Shown: one piece after another, positions 3,338-15,067 of the stretch
Layout of the letters: every line of letters starts with the position of its first letter
How positions within the stretch are numbered: the stretch's first letter is position 1
DNA from: Candidatus Methylomirabilota bacterium
GTDB taxonomy: Bacteria; Methylomirabilota; Methylomirabilia; Rokubacteriales; CSP1-6
DNA: 50,117 bases
Assembly: GCA_036002485.1 (NCBI GenBank)
Contig: DASYTI010000057.1
Coordinates: forward strand, 1 to 50,117
Direction of reading: 5' to 3'
Made by a program: the position numbers and the translations under genes
The notes under the pieces: generated by a model
The model's input: only the letters and a program-made list of their open reading frames with translations
Told to the model about the DNA's origin: nothing
Databases searched by the model: none

Positions 3338-4318
3338 TCAGAGCTCGACCGGTGTGTCGGAGCGGCCGCCCCACTCCGTCCACGAGCCGTCATAGACCGC
3401 GACCTTCTTGTGCCCGATCACGTGAAGCCCCAGGGCCAGCACCGAGGCCGTCACCCCCGAGCCGCAGGTGGTCGCCACCGGTTTGCGCGGATCCAGTCCC
3501 GCCTCGCGAAACGCCTCCTTGAGCCCCTCGGGAGGAAGGAGGGTGCCGTCCGGCCGGTAGAGCATGTCATAGGGCAGGTTGAAGCTGCCCGGAATGTGGC
3601 CGGCGCGCAGCCCCTGACGCGGCTCGGCCTCGGTGCCGTAAAAGCGGCCGCGCGAGCGAGCGTCCAGCACCTGCTCGCGACGCGTGTCGACATTGCGTCG
3701 CATCTGCTCGAGCCCGCGCACGAGCGCGGGCCGGAGCTTGGCGCGGAAGCGACGGACGGCGGGGGTGGGCGCCCCCGTGGCGAGGGGACGCCCCTCGGCC
3801 TTCCACTTCTTGAGTCCGCCGTCGAGCACAGCCACCCGATCGTGCCCGAAGGCCCGGAAGGTCCACCAGACGCGCGCGGCGCTGACCACGCCGCGGGTGT
3901 CATAGACCACGATGAGGTCATGGCTCGACAGCCCCAGCGCGCTCATGTGGCGGGAGAACTCCGCCGCCGCGGGAAGCATGTGGGGAAGAGGCGTGGTGCG
4001 ATCGGCGATCTCGTCGATGTCGAAGAAGACCGCCCCGGGGATATGCCCTTCCTCGAACTCGCGGCGCGCGCTGCGCTGGAGCTGAGGCATGTGCCAGGTG
4101 CCGTCCACCACGCGCACGCGAGAGTTCTCCCCGCCCCCGCGAGGATCAGATAGAACCGCGGCCAGCCACTCCGTGGTCACGACGAGGCCCGGGCTCTTGA
4201 AGGCGGCCGGCCCCCGGGCCGCCTTCGTGCGGGCCCGGGGTCGTGCGGGACGCTTCGCGCGGCGGCTTACTTTGACCGCGCGGCGTCGAGGGCGGCGGGG
4301 TCGAGATCGACTTCCCAT
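3338..4318 (-). CDS. sseA: 3-mercaptopyruvate/thiosulfate sulfurtransferase
   Basis: A tandem two-domain rhodanese. The N-terminal domain is inactive and the C-terminal domain carries the active loop CGSGVTA, the signature of 3-mercaptopyruvate sulfurtransferases (thiosulfate enzymes have CRxGxT). It moves sulfur from mercaptopyruvate to a thiol or cyanide. Two starts are possible. ATG at 4318 has GGAGG 10 bases upstream and overlaps the upstream rhodanese gene by 52 bases, adding a very basic 46-residue N-terminus. GTG at 4180 gives 280 residues, the normal family length, but lacks a ribosome site. I list the longer form; the core is certain and the start is not. Confidence 0.85.
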   Translation of the reverse strand: MGSRSRPRRPRRRAVKVSRRAKRPARPRARTKAARGPAAFKSPGLVVTTEWLAAVLSDPRGGGENSRVRVVDGTWHMPQLQRSARREFEEGHIPGAVFFDIDEIADRTTPLPHMLPAAAEFSRHMSALGLSSHDLIVVYDTRGVVSAARVWWTFRAFGHDRVAVLDGGLKKWKAEGRPLATGAPTPAVRRFRAKLRPALVRGLEQMRRNVDTRREQVLDARSRGRFYGTEAEPRQGLRAGHIPGSFNLPYDMLYRPDGTLLPPEGLKEAFREAGLDPRKPVATTCGSGVTASVLALGLHVIGHKKVAVYDGSWTEWGGRSDTPVEL

Positions 4319-5853
4319 TTCAGATAGGCCTCCATGGCCTCGCGGCCCTTCTCGTACGGCTTGAGCACCACATCGTCGGTCTCGTCGAGGAGTCGGCTCT
4401 TGCCCGTCTCGAGCGCGAGCCCCACCCGCTCCCACGCAGAGGTGCCACCGTCCAGCACGCGGACGGCGGCATAGCCGACGCGCGCGAGCGCGGCCGCGGC
4501 GAGCGTCGAGGGCCGCCCGTCGCGGCACGTGAGAACGAGGGCCCGTGTCCGATCGGGGAGAGCCTGTGGAGCCTTGAGCTCGAGGCGGCTGCGGCACAGC
4601 CATGCCGCGCCCGGCACGTGGCCGCGGGCATAGACATCGCTCGGATCGACGCTGAGCACGGTGGGCGGCTGTCCTCCCGCGAGCGCGGCCTTGAGCTCCG
4701 CCGCCACGAGGCTGCCCACCACCTCCCGCGCCGCCGCGAATCCCCACGGCTCGGCCTCGGGATGGCCGGTCTCGATGGCGCCGCCCTGCTCGATCCATGC
4801 GGGGAGCCCGCCCGAGAGCACCGCCACCTGAGGCAGACCCATGCGCTTGAGCCACGAGGCGGTCATGACCGAGCGGCCGGCGCCATCGCAGACCAGCACG
4901 ACGCGCGCGGCGCGCACCGCGATGTACTCGTCGGTGGCCTGGACGGCCTGGCCACCGGGGGCCCACGCGGCGCCCGCCAAATGACCGGCCTCGTATTCCT
5001 CGCGCATGCGGACATCGAGGACGACGACATTCTCCTCGGCGCGACGGGCCCAGAGATTGCTCAGCTCGACCGCCGTGATGGATGCGATCCCGTCATCCTT
5101 GGCCACCCGCGCCGCCACCGCGCGCGCCCGCTCGCGGCCCGCCTCCGACACCGCGGGCGCCCAGCGCTGGGCTCCCCGCTCGAGGGCAAAGCCGGCCAGC
5201 TCCCAACCCATGGTGCCGTTCTCGAGGGCCACGATGGGATTGGGCAGCCTCATGCGCCGGAGAGACTCGGCGCCGATATAGCTCCGGGTGCGGCCGCCGC
5301 AGTGGACGACGATGGTGGTCTCGGGTTTCGTGGCGAGCTCGCCGATCCGCAGGGTGAGCTCGCCCCCCGGCATGCTCACGGAGCCCGGGATACAGCCCCG
5401 GTGATACTCCTCGGGCGTGCGCGAATCCACGATGACCAAGTCTTCGCCGCCATCGATCCGCCGCTTCAGCTCGTGAGGGGGGATCTCGGGCGTGCCGAGG
5501 TGATGGAGGGCCCATTCCCCGAACGCCTTGCTCGGCACGTTGATGCCCGTGACGGTTTCCCGCCCTCCCGCGCACCAGTCGCCAAGCCCTCCCTCGAGCG
5601 TGCGGACGTCGGTATAGCCCATGGCGCGCACCATGGGCGAGGCGAGCGCGGCCAGGGTGCCGTCGCCGTCACACAATACGAGGGGCGTGCCCTTCGCCGA
5701 CACGAGATCGCGCAGCCTGAACTCGAGGAGCCGCCGGGGCAGAGAGGTCGCGCGGAAGATATGCCCGCGCTCATAAGCCGCGCGCTCGCGGAGATCGAGG
5801 ACGGCGTGGGGCGCCTCGCCCGCCATGAGCGCGGCCAGCTCACGCGGCGTCAC
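4267..5853 (-). CDS. Four-domain rhodanese-like sulfurtransferase
   Basis: This 528-residue protein carries four rhodanese modules in a row. Each has a cysteine at the active-loop position: LVLCDGDG, VVHCGGRTRS, LVCDGAGRS and LTCRDGRPS. There is no signal peptide. Rhodanese domains carry persulfide sulfur on that cysteine. The GTG start at 5853 overlaps the TGA of the upstream VKOR-thioredoxin gene as GTGA, the hallmark of coupled translation. Starts further upstream would run inside the thioredoxin domain. The neighbours (mercaptopyruvate sulfurtransferase, thiol dioxygenase, thiol oxidoreductase) point to sulfane-sulfur handling. The physiological acceptor is unknown. Confidence 0.85.
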   Translation of the reverse strand: MTPRELAALMAGEAPHAVLDLRERAAYERGHIFRATSLPRRLLEFRLRDLVSAKGTPLVLCDGDGTLAALASPMVRAMGYTDVRTLEGGLGDWCAGGRETVTGINVPSKAFGEWALHHLGTPEIPPHELKRRIDGGEDLVIVDSRTPEEYHRGCIPGSVSMPGGELTLRIGELATKPETTIVVHCGGRTRSYIGAESLRRMRLPNPIVALENGTMGWELAGFALERGAQRWAPAVSEAGRERARAVAARVAKDDGIASITAVELSNLWARRAEENVVVLDVRMREEYEAGHLAGAAWAPGGQAVQATDEYIAVRAARVVLVCDGAGRSVMTASWLKRMGLPQVAVLSGGLPAWIEQGGAIETGHPEAEPWGFAAAREVVGSLVAAELKAALAGGQPPTVLSVDPSDVYARGHVPGAAWLCRSRLELKAPQALPDRTRALVLTCRDGRPSTLAAAALARVGYAAVRVLDGGTSAWERVGLALETGKSRLLDETDDVVLKPYEKGREAMEAYLKWEVDLDPAALDAARSK

Positions 5854-6713
5854 GGCCGGGCGCCCGCCTGCGTCGTGTAGCGGAACCTGGAGAGCTCGGC
5901 GAGGCGCTCGAGGGACAGCACTCCCTCGTGCTTCTGGCCGCCGATCATCCACGTGGGATAGGCGCGCACGCCCGCCCTCACGCAGCGCTCATCGATCGTC
6001 TTATGATCGCCCGTGGGATTGCACTCCACGTACGGCAGACGCTCCGCGGCAGGCCCGAACCGGGCCTTTTGCTCTTTGCACGCGGGTCACCAGTGGGCGC
6101 CGTAGAACACGGCCTGGTTCTTCTTGAGATGCTCGGCGAGAGCCATCTGGTATCCCGCGGGCGTGGAGAAGTCCGCGGCGAAGATGAACGCGCCGAAGAT
6201 CACCGCGGCCACGCCCGCCGTGATGCCGAGTCCGGCCAGGTGCTTCAGCGAATACGCCCGGGCAGGGGCCGCGGGCCGCCTCACCATCATGGTCACGAGG
6301 AGCAGGAGCGAGATGGCGCCCGAGGCGAGGCAGTAGGGGCAGGTGGCGCCGATCACGAAGACCGACAGGTACGTGAGGTAGATCGAGAAGGCCACCGCGG
6401 CCGAGACGAACATGAAGGCCGTCTGCCAGCGCCGCACGGTTTGCGGGATGACGCTCAGGACCAAGATGGCGGCGTAGACGGTGGCGCCCCAGAGGGCGGT
6501 GGGGAGACCGGCGAGGAGCGAATAGCGACTGGCCTGGACGATGTCGCAGCCGCTGCCGTCGCGGCAGAGGAAGGTTTGATTGCCGCCCAGCTTCAGCGCG
6601 GTCAGGTAGCCGGCCACGGCCAGACCCACGAGGGCCAACCCCGCGATGATCCAGTCCGGCCGCGACGTGACGGGCGGCGAGGGCATCTCGCGCGGCTTCT
6701 TGAGCTTCGGCAT
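5850..6713 (-). CDS. VKOR-thioredoxin fusion, probable selenoprotein (in-frame TGA = Sec209)
   Basis: Residues 1-190 form a bacterial vitamin K epoxide reductase domain with several membrane helices, loop cysteines C50 and C56 and the active CPYC motif (C125, C128). In related fusions a thioredoxin domain with WCPxC follows. Here the frame reads FYGAHW, then TGA (6089-6087), then PACKEQKARFG, and continues open to a TGA at 5852-5850 as a complete thioredoxin-like domain. So TGA replaces the first CxxC cysteine (U209-P-A-C212). The downstream stop overlaps the next start as GTGA. ATG 6713 has GAGG six bases upstream. A standard caller would stop at 6087 and give a 208-residue fragment. VKOR reoxidises thiol oxidoreductases using quinone. 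A nonsense mutation or a base error is the alternative. Confidence 0.8.
6051..6067 (-). promoter_or_regulatory. Candidate bacterial SECIS hairpin
   Basis: On the minus strand AGGCCCG (6067-6061) pairs perfectly with CGGGCCT (6057-6051) around the three-base loop GUU (6060-6058). The loop begins 26 bases after the in-frame TGA at 6089-6087. Bacterial SECIS elements are known to be stem-loops within the coding region just after the UGA, with the apical loop roughly 16-37 bases downstream and a G among the first loop bases. This hairpin meets all three conditions. SelB binding is inferred. Confidence 0.6.
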
Positions 6714-6858: not shown

Positions 6859-7593
6859 ATGACGAGATCCAATCGACGCGAGTTCCTCTCCGGGGTGGCG
6901 GGGGCGGCGGCGGCCGGGCTCATGACGCGGGCCGGCCAGGCCAGCGCCCAGGGCACGGGCGGCAAGATCAAGCCGGATGATCATGCGCTGCTCGTGATCG
7001 TGGACGTGCAGAACGACTTCATTCCCGGGGGCGCCCTTCCCGTCAAGGAGGGTGATCAGATCGTTCCGCTGGTGAACAAGATCGCCGCGGGCTTCCGGCA
7101 TGTGATCCTGACTCAGGACTGGCATACGCCGGGGCACATCTCCTTCGCCTCGACCCATGCCGGCAAGAAGCCCTTCGAGACGGTGGCCCTCGGCTACGGG
7201 ACCCAGGTGCTCTGGCCCGATCACTGCGTGCAAGGCACGCCCGGCGCGGACTTTCACAAGGACCTCAAGGTCCCGCACGCCGAGCTCATCATTCGCAAGG
7301 GATACCGGCAGCACATGGACTCCTACTCGGCCTTCTTCGAGGCCGACGGCAAGGCGACCACGGGGCTCCGGGGCTATGTCCGGGACCGCGGGCTCCGCAA
7401 TCTCTACTTCGTCGGCCTGGCCACGGACTTCTGCGTGGGCTGGTCGGCCCTGGATGCTCGCAAGGTGGGACTTCAGGCCTCGGTGATCGAGGATGCCTGC
7501 CGCGGCATCGACACGGAGGGATCGCTCGCCAAGGCCTGGGCGGCCATGCAGAAGGCCGGGGTCAAGCGCATCCAGTCCAGCGACATCACGTAA
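6859..7593 (+). CDS. Tat-exported isochorismatase-family hydrolase (nicotinamidase-like)
   Basis: This 244-residue protein has a twin-arginine signal (NRREFLSGVAG, residues 5-15, then an Ala-rich core ending in ASAQ). The mature domain shows the cysteine-hydrolase triad D49 (VDVQNDF), K147 and C192 (ATDFCV), and nicotinamidase metal ligands D87 and H89 (DWHTPGH) with H122. Sequence detail fits PncA-type amidohydrolases, which deamidate nicotinamide. An exported copy is unusual, because nicotinamidases are normally cytosolic. The substrate may be another amide in the periplasm. It is the first gene of a short plus-strand pair with the DUF385 gene 7 bases downstream. Confidence 0.8.
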   Translation: MTRSNRREFLSGVAGAAAAGLMTRAGQASAQGTGGKIKPDDHALLVIVDVQNDFIPGGALPVKEGDQIVPLVNKIAAGFRHVILTQDWHTPGHISFASTHAGKKPFETVALGYGTQVLWPDHCVQGTPGADFHKDLKVPHAELIIRKGYRQHMDSYSAFFEADGKATTGLRGYVRDRGLRNLYFVGLATDFCVGWSALDARKVGLQASVIEDACRGIDTEGSLAKAWAAMQKAGVKRIQSSDIT

Positions 7594-7600
7594 AGAGTCG

Positions 7601-7969
7601 ATGCCGGACCCCGCCGCGTCGGAGGAGCCGCAATACCTCTATCTCACGACGCGCGGCCGGAAGACGGGGCGGCCGCGCGAGATCGAGATCTGGTTCACGC
7701 GGCGCGGGCGCTGCTTCTATCTCGTGTCCGAGCGCCGGCTCCGCGCCCACTGGGTGCAGAACCTCCTGGAGGAGCCGCGCGTGCGGTGGAGCGTGGACGG
7801 CCGGAAGTTCCGCGGCCGCGCGCGCGTGGTGCGCGCGGCCAGCGCCCCCGAGCTGGTCCGCGACATCCAGGCCCGCTCGAAGAGCAAGTACGGCTGGGGC
7901 GACGGCCTCGTGGTCGAGCTCGACCCCGGCGCGCCCGCGGCGCGCCGTCGCCCTCACGGCATGGCCTAG
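7601..7969 (+). CDS. DUF385 / deazaflavin-dependent nitroreductase-family protein
   Basis: This 122-residue protein is small, soluble and rich in Arg. The motif TTRGRKTGRPREIEIWF near the N-terminus is typical of the DUF385 (nitroreductase/quinone reductase) split-barrel family, whose studied members bind F420. ATG 7601 is the first reasonable start. The gene begins 7 bases after the hydrolase stop, so the two are probably co-transcribed, and it converges on the crotonase gene 18 bases away. The cofactor, F420 or FMN, cannot be told from the sequence. Confidence 0.65.
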   Translation: MPDPAASEEPQYLYLTTRGRKTGRPREIEIWFTRRGRCFYLVSERRLRAHWVQNLLEEPRVRWSVDGRKFRGRARVVRAASAPELVRDIQARSKSKYGWGDGLVVELDPGAPAARRRPHGMA

Positions 7970-12980: not shown

Positions 12981-15067
12981 GGCTTGGCGCTCACCGCGGA
13001 TGGAGCGTAGAGTCGACGATACTCTTCCCAGGCGAGCATGACGCGCCGGACGAAGCGGCGGGTCTCGTCGTAGGGGATGAGCTCGACCCACACCTCGAGG
13101 TCCTCGGTGGGCCGGCTCTTCCACCACTCGCGCACGCGCGTGGGGCCGGCATTGTACGCGGCCACGGCCAGGCGGGGCTCGCCGAACTCCTTCATGAGCA
13201 CCCCCAGGTAGGCGCCGCCCAGGGCGAGATTGACCGCGGGGTCGTCCAGCGACTCCTCGCTCGTGGGGAGCCCGCGGCTCCTGGCGAGCGGGCGGGCGGT
13301 GTCGGGCATGAGCTGCATGAGCCCGCGCGCCCCCACGCGCGAGCGCGCCTGGGGGTTGAACGAGGACTCCTCGCGCACCATGGCCGCCACGAAGTACGGG
13401 TCGAGGGCCGCTCGCGAGGCGGCGTCGCTCAGCTCATTGCGCCATCCCATCGGATAGAAGAGATCCCAGAAGGTCCGCGGCACGGACGGCGCGCTCCGCG
13501 CCACGCCGAGGAAGCTCCGCCGAAGGATGCGCAGCGACAGGTAGAAGCGCGATTCCTGGGCATAGGCGGCCGAGAGGGCATAGAGCCGCCGTGGATTGTC
13601 GGCGGACCGCCGCACCATGGAATCCATCTCGTCGTCGGCGTAGTCGCCGAGCCCAACCGCGCGCAGCGCTTCCACGCGCGCCCACGGCGCCTCGGCCTGG
13701 AGGAGCTCGCGAGGATCCGCGGGCAGCGATGCCGCGAGCTGAGCGGAGGCGGGATTGCGACCCGGGCCCGGCTGGACGTGCGGAGCCCGGCGGGAGGCGA
13801 GAATGCCGTAGTAGCTGCGCGGCGCCTCCGCGATGAGCTGAGTGAACTGCCGGGTCGCGGCCTCGGTCTGGCCGAGCTCCGCCTGGGCGCGGCCGATCCA
13901 GTAGGTCGAAGCGTCGCGATACCCCTGGCTGGCCATGCGGACCGAGGAAATACGACCCCACCGCTCGACGGCCTCGCCATAGTCGCCGCGCAGCCACGAG
14001 AGCCAGCCGAGCCGCCATGTCGCGGCCAAACCCTCGTCACTCTCCGGATAGCTCTGGGCCAGCCTGACGTAGACAGGCTCCGCCGACTTGGGCGCGCTCC
14101 CCGCCTCCAGGAGGCGCGCCTTGAGCAGCAACGCCTCCGGCGCCTCCGCGCTCTTGGGCTCGGCGGTGAGAAGGCGGTCGAGCTGCACGATGGCGCCCTC
14201 GCGATTCTTCTTCTGCTGGATCTTCGCCGAGTCGAGGATCCACGGCGCGCGCTTGTCGGCGGGGGCGAGGGCGAGCGCCCGGTTGACGGCGAGCAGCGCG
14301 GCGTCGTCGCGATTGAGGCGGCGCGAGGCTTCCATGACCACGTGAAGGGCGCGCAGGGCCACCTCTGTCGAGGGCCGCTCCGCGAGGAGAAGATCCGCTT
14401 CGCTGCGCGAGGCCTCGGCCGTTCCCGCCGCCACCAGACGCTCGGCGCGCTCCACCCGCTGGGCCGGGGTGGGCGCGGCCACGGGCACGCCGCGGCCCTC
14501 GAGGGCGCGGAGCTCGCGCGCCGCCGCCTCGCCCTGCGGGGAAGCGGGGAGGAGGAGCCACAGCTCGCGGTACGCCGCGGCCGCTTCGCCGAGTCGCCCG
14601 GCATTGGCGAGGGCCTGGGCCCAGGCCAGCCGCACGCGCGGGAGGTCGGGCAGATCCGGGAATCGATCGAGGACGCGGCGCCAGAGAGCGGCCGCCCCCG
14701 CCTCGTCGCCCGCGCGCGAGGCCTGCTCGGCGGCGAGCATGAGCGCGGCGGGCACGGCGCGGCTATCGGGCCACTGGTCGGGGATTTGCTGGGCCACCAC
14801 GCGCGCGCCCGCGGGGTCGCCCAGGCGCGCCAGGCTTTCCGCCTGGTAAAGGAGCGCGTAGTCGCCGATGGGAGCCGCCGAACGCGCAATGTCGGCGAGC
14901 TCGCGCGCGGCCGTCGCCCAGTCGCCCGCCCGATAGCTCTGCAGGGCCGCGGCAAAGCGGTCGCGCGCCTCGGGGGCCAGACGGACAGGTGCGGGCCCCG
15001 CCGTGGACGCGGAGGCGAGGAGCGCCACGAAGAGGATACAGACGACGGCCGTGCACGCGCGCCGCAT
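12977..15067 (-). CDS. slt: Soluble lytic murein transglycosylase (Slt70-type)
   Basis: A 696-residue exported protein. It has a signal peptide (1-24), a long helical superhelix of TPR-like repeats (about 30-530), and a C-terminal lysozyme-like SLT domain. The SLT domain shows the catalytic Glu in VREESSFNP, then GARGLMQLMP and YNAGPTRVREW. The enzyme cleaves peptidoglycan glycan strands with formation of 1,6-anhydro-MurNAc in the periplasm. Length and architecture match Slt70. It sits between the CDP-alcohol phosphatidyltransferase gene (9 bases upstream) and the RDD gene (4-base overlap), in one long minus-strand operon that starts with glnD. Confidence 0.92.
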   Translation of the reverse strand: MRRACTAVVCILFVALLASASTAGPAPVRLAPEARDRFAAALQSYRAGDWATAARELADIARSAAPIGDYALLYQAESLARLGDPAGARVVAQQIPDQWPDSRAVPAALMLAAEQASRAGDEAGAAALWRRVLDRFPDLPDLPRVRLAWAQALANAGRLGEAAAAYRELWLLLPASPQGEAAARELRALEGRGVPVAAPTPAQRVERAERLVAAGTAEASRSEADLLLAERPSTEVALRALHVVMEASRRLNRDDAALLAVNRALALAPADKRAPWILDSAKIQQKKNREGAIVQLDRLLTAEPKSAEAPEALLLKARLLEAGSAPKSAEPVYVRLAQSYPESDEGLAATWRLGWLSWLRGDYGEAVERWGRISSVRMASQGYRDASTYWIGRAQAELGQTEAATRQFTQLIAEAPRSYYGILASRRAPHVQPGPGRNPASAQLAASLPADPRELLQAEAPWARVEALRAVGLGDYADDEMDSMVRRSADNPRRLYALSAAYAQESRFYLSLRILRRSFLGVARSAPSVPRTFWDLFYPMGWRNELSDAASRAALDPYFVAAMVREESSFNPQARSRVGARGLMQLMPDTARPLARSRGLPTSEESLDDPAVNLALGGAYLGVLMKEFGEPRLAVAAYNAGPTRVREWWKSRPTEDLEVWVELIPYDETRRFVRRVMLAWEEYRRLYAPSAVSAKP

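Follow-up and report, generated by a model that had tools for sequence, protein, structure and literature searches.

VKOR is a membrane-bound enzyme that takes part in oxidative protein folding, and the protein targeted by warfarin in humans is a relative. The VKOR-thioredoxin fusion of Synechococcus (PDB 3kp9, 4nv2, 4nv6) shares its two-domain layout with the protein described here, with 255 residues aligned. The present protein differs from the Synechococcus fusion in having a predicted selenocysteine (Sec) where the CxxC motif has its first Cys, and Arg rather than Leu or Ile two residues before a conserved Gly. A UxxC motif in a thioredoxin (Trx)-like fold is also found in the Thioredoxin and DsbA/DsbG-like selenoproteins (PMC13188914, Table 1), whereas the UxxC domain here is fused to a membrane VKOR. 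In the bacterial SECIS (bSECIS) model, as quoted in this 2026 review (PMC13188914), the loop lies 16-37 nt from the UGA, is small, and has a G in its first two positions. The hairpin reported here resembles such elements in being a coding-region stem-loop just 3' of a UGA, with a small G-led loop and a spacing within range. It differs in being near-invariant across a phylum and in having a loop of only three nucleotides, GUU, as a putative SelB site.

The VKOR-thioredoxin gene and its hairpin

The window, the whole stretch of 50,117 nucleotides that was analysed, is contig C57 of a draft genome (G000) of 4.45 Mb that is 95.7% complete, and its closest relative among the genomes compared is a Candidatus Rokuibacteriota MAG, at 86% protein identity. 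Three features of the window are central to this report.

5850 to 6713, reverse strand: VKOR-thioredoxin fusion gene, from ATG at 6713 to TGA at 5850, 287 residues, with Sec at 209 if the internal TGA is read as U.
6087 to 6089, reverse strand: in-frame UGA, putatively read as selenocysteine, at the first position of UxxC.
6051 to 6067, reverse strand: candidate SECIS hairpin, 5' arm AGGCCCG (6067-6061), loop GUU (6060-6058), 3' arm CGGGCCT (6057-6051).

An ORF finder run without recoding stopped at the UGA and returned 209 residues from a start one codon upstream of the ATG at 6713, and routine annotation would truncate the gene in the same way. The Pfam VKOR domain covers residues 22-142 of the protein (P0001; 92.9 bits), and the Pfam Thioredoxin score of the fusion is 21.0 bits, below the cut-off of 23.5. 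Both the VKOR domain and the Trx-like domain that follows it, in which CxxC is UxxC, are covered by the alignment to the full Synechococcus chains (E 4.9e-42 to 8.3e-42). In this alignment the UGA falls on chain residue 209 of the solved homologue, the Cys that opens the Trx CxxC. The 79 codons from the UGA to the stop of the gene are conserved as a Trx-like domain. Judged from the alignment, the gene encodes a VKOR-thioredoxin fusion with a predicted Sec in place of the first Cys of CxxC.

The hairpin had been proposed in an original prediction made from the letters of this locus. Its coordinates, 6051-6089, were exact and the 7-bp stem with loop GUU is perfect, but the stem does not start 26 bases after the UGA as stated: the distance from the UGA (6089-6087) to the stem is 19 nt, and 26 nt reaches the loop. 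The accompanying claim of a G-led loop at a SECIS-range spacing holds with the corrected distances, as a loop 26 nt away that begins with G lies within the 16-37 nt of the bSECIS model, and the stem-loop lies in the coding region just 3' of an in-frame UGA. Folded alone, the 17-nt element has an energy of -11.9 kcal/mol (z -2.93). When the 42 nt that follow the UGA are folded, both the MFE structure (6/7 pairs) and the centroid (7/7) contain the stem, with a z of -1.62, and in an 81-nt stretch it is still within the MFE structure, with a z of only -0.76. At gathering scores, Rfam gave zero matches in the window.

Chance levels were estimated for Watson-Crick stems with 7 or more pairs whose loop lies 16-37 nt downstream and has a G as its first or second base. 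A comparable stem was produced by 0.76% of 50,000 synonymous-codon shuffles, and an equally good one exists at 1,447 of the 100,074 positions scored in the window (1.4%). As stems of this quality arise in 0.8% of shuffles and at 1.4% of positions, the single sequence is suggestive rather than proof, and the palindrome taken alone is only mildly unusual.

Selenocysteine machinery and other candidate selenoprotein genes

Searches of the 95.7%-complete draft gave zero matches for selA, and nothing above cut-off for either selB or tRNA-Sec (150 of 756 tRNA-Sec candidates scored). The best selB match (104 bits) was taken as another GTPase, resembling the second-rank matches of about 90-110 bits that stand beside a real selB in most relatives. 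There were 11 tRNA-Sec-like matches, and the eight with a locus fall on ordinary tRNA genes. Same-genus genomes with the VKOR gene (G001, G002, G004) have selA, selB and tRNA-Sec all over cut-off. Among the 60 genomes searched were 16 of the 21 with the TGA form (G086, G089, G090, G091 and G094 were left out), and in these 16 selA was over cut-off in 14, selB in 13 and tRNA-Sec in 13. The three genomes with the Cys form also have selA, selB and tRNA-Sec, and the machinery alone therefore does not predict the TGA form.

In G001, selB, selA and selC are clustered inside about 4.7 kb, so that one missing stretch would explain the absence of all three. When the 17-kb sel stretch of G001 was compared with the host genome, matches were found from position 13187, at the very start of C193 and about 2.2 kb beyond selC, and also at 42-558, inside C219; to the sel genes within this stretch there were none beyond short pieces. 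Of the two sides of the gap, only the one at C193 coincides with the end of a contig. The arrangement suggests that the absence of selA, selB and tRNA-Sec from this draft is an assembly gap. In G004, the DNA that directly follows selB matches both the start of C193 and part of C219 (L166 1-93, L144 1861-1989), perhaps because of a repeat that broke the assembly.

Two further genes of the host genome carry an in-frame TGA. The SelD gene (L174, G000:C51) has a SECIS-like stem, GTCCCGG-AGATCT-CCGGGAC in G000 and G004 and GTCCTGG-AGATCT-CCAGGAC in G001, G002, G003 and G006, so that the close relatives (L171-L176) show a compensatory change from C-G to U-A. The FDH-like gene (L146, G000:C150:4700-7200) has a 7-bp stem, GGTCCCC-GCTTT-GGGGACC, with a 6-pair form in five other loci; L153 (G006) differs. 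A second selD match (G000:C54:11480-12397) contains no stop inside its 799-residue frame, and is perhaps a fusion.

These data bear on whether the species is truly without Sec machinery, with the UGA terminating translation and the hairpin a relic. Such a loss would agree with the failure of all three sel searches in a draft of this completeness. We nonetheless consider it very unlikely, given that the host genome holds three TGA genes with intact stems and that one missing stretch would account for selB, selA and selC, with C193 starting some 2.2 kb past the position that selC would occupy. It is more improbable still that a suppressor tRNA or an altered genetic code places another amino acid, such as Cys or Trp, at the UGA, with the hairpin aiding readthrough without Sec. 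Relatives do have Cys at the UGA position, but the next stop of the VKOR gene itself is also TGA, most genomes that carry this gene also have selA, selB and tRNA-Sec, the SelD and FDH-like genes carry their TGA at motif sites, and the tRNA-Sec-like matches of the host that were read are ordinary tRNAs.

Comparison of TGA and Cys homologues

The phylum set comprised 95 genomes, and the motif was read in 24 homologues, with TGA in 21 and Cys in three (L032, L039, L040). L016, with the same hairpin as L024, was excluded from the 21, and a weak, short match in G034 over the motif (E 7e-4) stands outside the counts, as do L042-L052 (no Trx motif) and L118-L120 (by match range) for the Cys homologues. 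All 21 TGA loci have the pattern AGGCCCG-GTT-CGGG[CT]C[CT] and in each of them the loop lies 26 nt past the TGA; 11 loci form seven standard pairs and the other 10 form six, the outermost pair there being A.C. This conservation was found even though the TGA proteins outside the genus are just 43-53% identical to the window protein. In contrast, none of the nine aligned Cys homologues (three from the phylum and six Synechococcus) has the hairpin, with at most 3/7 positions pairing, and the exact stem was likewise absent from six further Cys homologues (L177-L182), judged by eye from the letters and not scored. Under loose criteria, allowing G-U pairs and any allowed placement, some stem of at least 7 pairs exists in 5 of 15 Cys homologues (L022, L032, L179, L180, L181), so that only the exact stem and its place discriminate.

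The stem was predicted to be the local minimum, and this is so in the window at both 42 and 81 nt and in the 60-nt MFE structure of 18 of the 21 distinct TGA loci, with L029, L038 and L041 favouring another fold. A TGA orthologue without a hairpin at this spacing, which would have spoken against the original prediction, was found in 0 of 21 cases. The paired changes in the arms that it had looked for are absent: no pair in the VKOR helix has both sides changed over 21 loci, and there was no covariation across the first six. Five of the seven pairs are constant, one alternates between G-C and G-U, and the outermost is A-U or A.C; covariation is thus missing because the element hardly varies.

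The codons GCC, CGG and GGG of the hairpin are identical in 21/21 TGA loci, whereas the pair identities expected from codon usage in these genes, uncorrected for relatedness, are 0.44, 0.33 and 0.41. The Arg encoded by CGG is present in all 21 TGA proteins and in none of the nine Cys proteins, which have Leu or Ile instead, as if the RNA element had altered the protein at this position. The argument that selection on the protein alone would not create the palindrome is weak for one sequence and strong when made comparatively, and the conservation in these alignments goes far beyond a chance palindrome. The hairpin is kept with TGA and lost with Cys, and it is this that decides for a SECIS element where the palindrome alone does not.

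The same comparison bears on two other explanations, both of which we regard as negligible. If the TGA were a sequencing error, or a nonsense mutation in a gene undergoing decay, with a palindrome that arose by chance in GC-rich DNA, the draft state of the assembly and the 1.4% of window positions with an equally good stem would cause no surprise, but the same codon is TGA in 21 genomes, the 79 codons past it are conserved as a Trx-like domain, and the hairpin is retained in 21/21. An element acting by its sequence, for example as an mRNA site for another protein, and not as a SelB-bound hairpin, would suit the near-invariant letters and the lack of covariation, but its presence tracks TGA versus Cys exactly in 30 aligned loci, and its spacing and G-led loop match the bSECIS model.

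A tree of 20 Sec and nine Cys rows, omitting the incomplete L041, has three changes between the forms; the Sec form of the VKOR fusion may have arisen once. In a search of 388 genomes, 10 genomes beyond the phylum matched at E 1e-15, with eight matches covering the motif. None of the matches listed contains a stop, and the six that were read (L177-L182) all have Cys. Viral contigs gave zero matches to the TGA-plus-hairpin pattern, and one weak relative (L170).

Discussion

Taken with the fold of the stem, the presence of the hairpin in 21/21 TGA loci and 0/9 Cys loci supports the SECIS reading of the original prediction, and it is very probable that the hairpin is a bacterial SECIS element in the VKOR-thioredoxin mRNA, through which the UGA would be read as Sec via SelB. 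The alignment of the UGA with the leading Cys of CxxC in the Synechococcus structure, the G-U start of the loop and the 26-nt spacing also count for this reading, as do the SelD and FDH-like genes of the host, with their TGA codons and stems, and the sel genes of G001, G002 and G004. Counting against it are the failure to find selA, or selB and tRNA-Sec over cut-off, in the host draft, the lack of compensatory change, the fact that the palindrome is not rare, the stems that 5 of 15 Cys homologues show under loose criteria, and the Sec machinery of the three Cys-form genomes. In the proposed mechanism, SelB carrying Sec-tRNA-Sec would bind the hairpin in the VKOR-thioredoxin mRNA, and the ribosome would insert selenocysteine at the UGA and continue through the rest of the thioredoxin-like domain. 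Sec would thereby replace the first CxxC Cys, through which electrons are expected to be exchanged with the membrane domain of VKOR. By analogy with the homologue, the product, a membrane VKOR with a Trx-like UxxC domain, would pass oxidising equivalents to secreted proteins, and we infer a role for the enzyme in disulfide-bond formation.

Of the 119 families or subfamilies tabulated in the review (PMC13188914, Table 1), none is named VKOR, and neither 'VKOR' nor 'vitamin K' appears in its text. A literature search gave no paper whose title or opening abstract lines suggest a selenoprotein form of VKOR in bacteria. The review mentions one Methylomirabilota MAG for which 63 selenoproteins are predicted, and these may include the VKOR family. 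The hairpin is an element of a known kind in an apparently uncatalogued selenoprotein. We consider it likely that the family itself is uncatalogued, a Sec form of VKOR seen here only in Methylomirabilota-type genomes, in which the SECIS element froze the codons and the Arg, and which would tie selenium supply to periplasmic disulfide-bond formation. If this is true, VKOR joins the proteins that use selenocysteine, and its hairpin offers a clear comparative example of how a SECIS element shapes the surrounding protein.

The gene neighbours of the VKOR fusion are conserved within the genus, and two of them lie downstream.

4267 to 5853, reverse strand: four-rhodanese gene, from a candidate GTG start.
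3341 to 4123, reverse strand: second gene with a rhodanese domain (sulfurtransferase-like), farther downstream; coordinates are those of the scan.

The candidate GTG start of the four-rhodanese gene overlaps the VKOR stop as GTGA, so that its translation would be coupled to UGA readthrough in the VKOR gene. This neighbour is also present in G001 and G002, and the second rhodanese-domain gene is retained in G001, G002 and G004. The divergent neighbours, both on the forward strand, are an isochorismatase-domain gene (6862-7590) and an F420H2-dependent quinone reductase-like gene (7601-7966).
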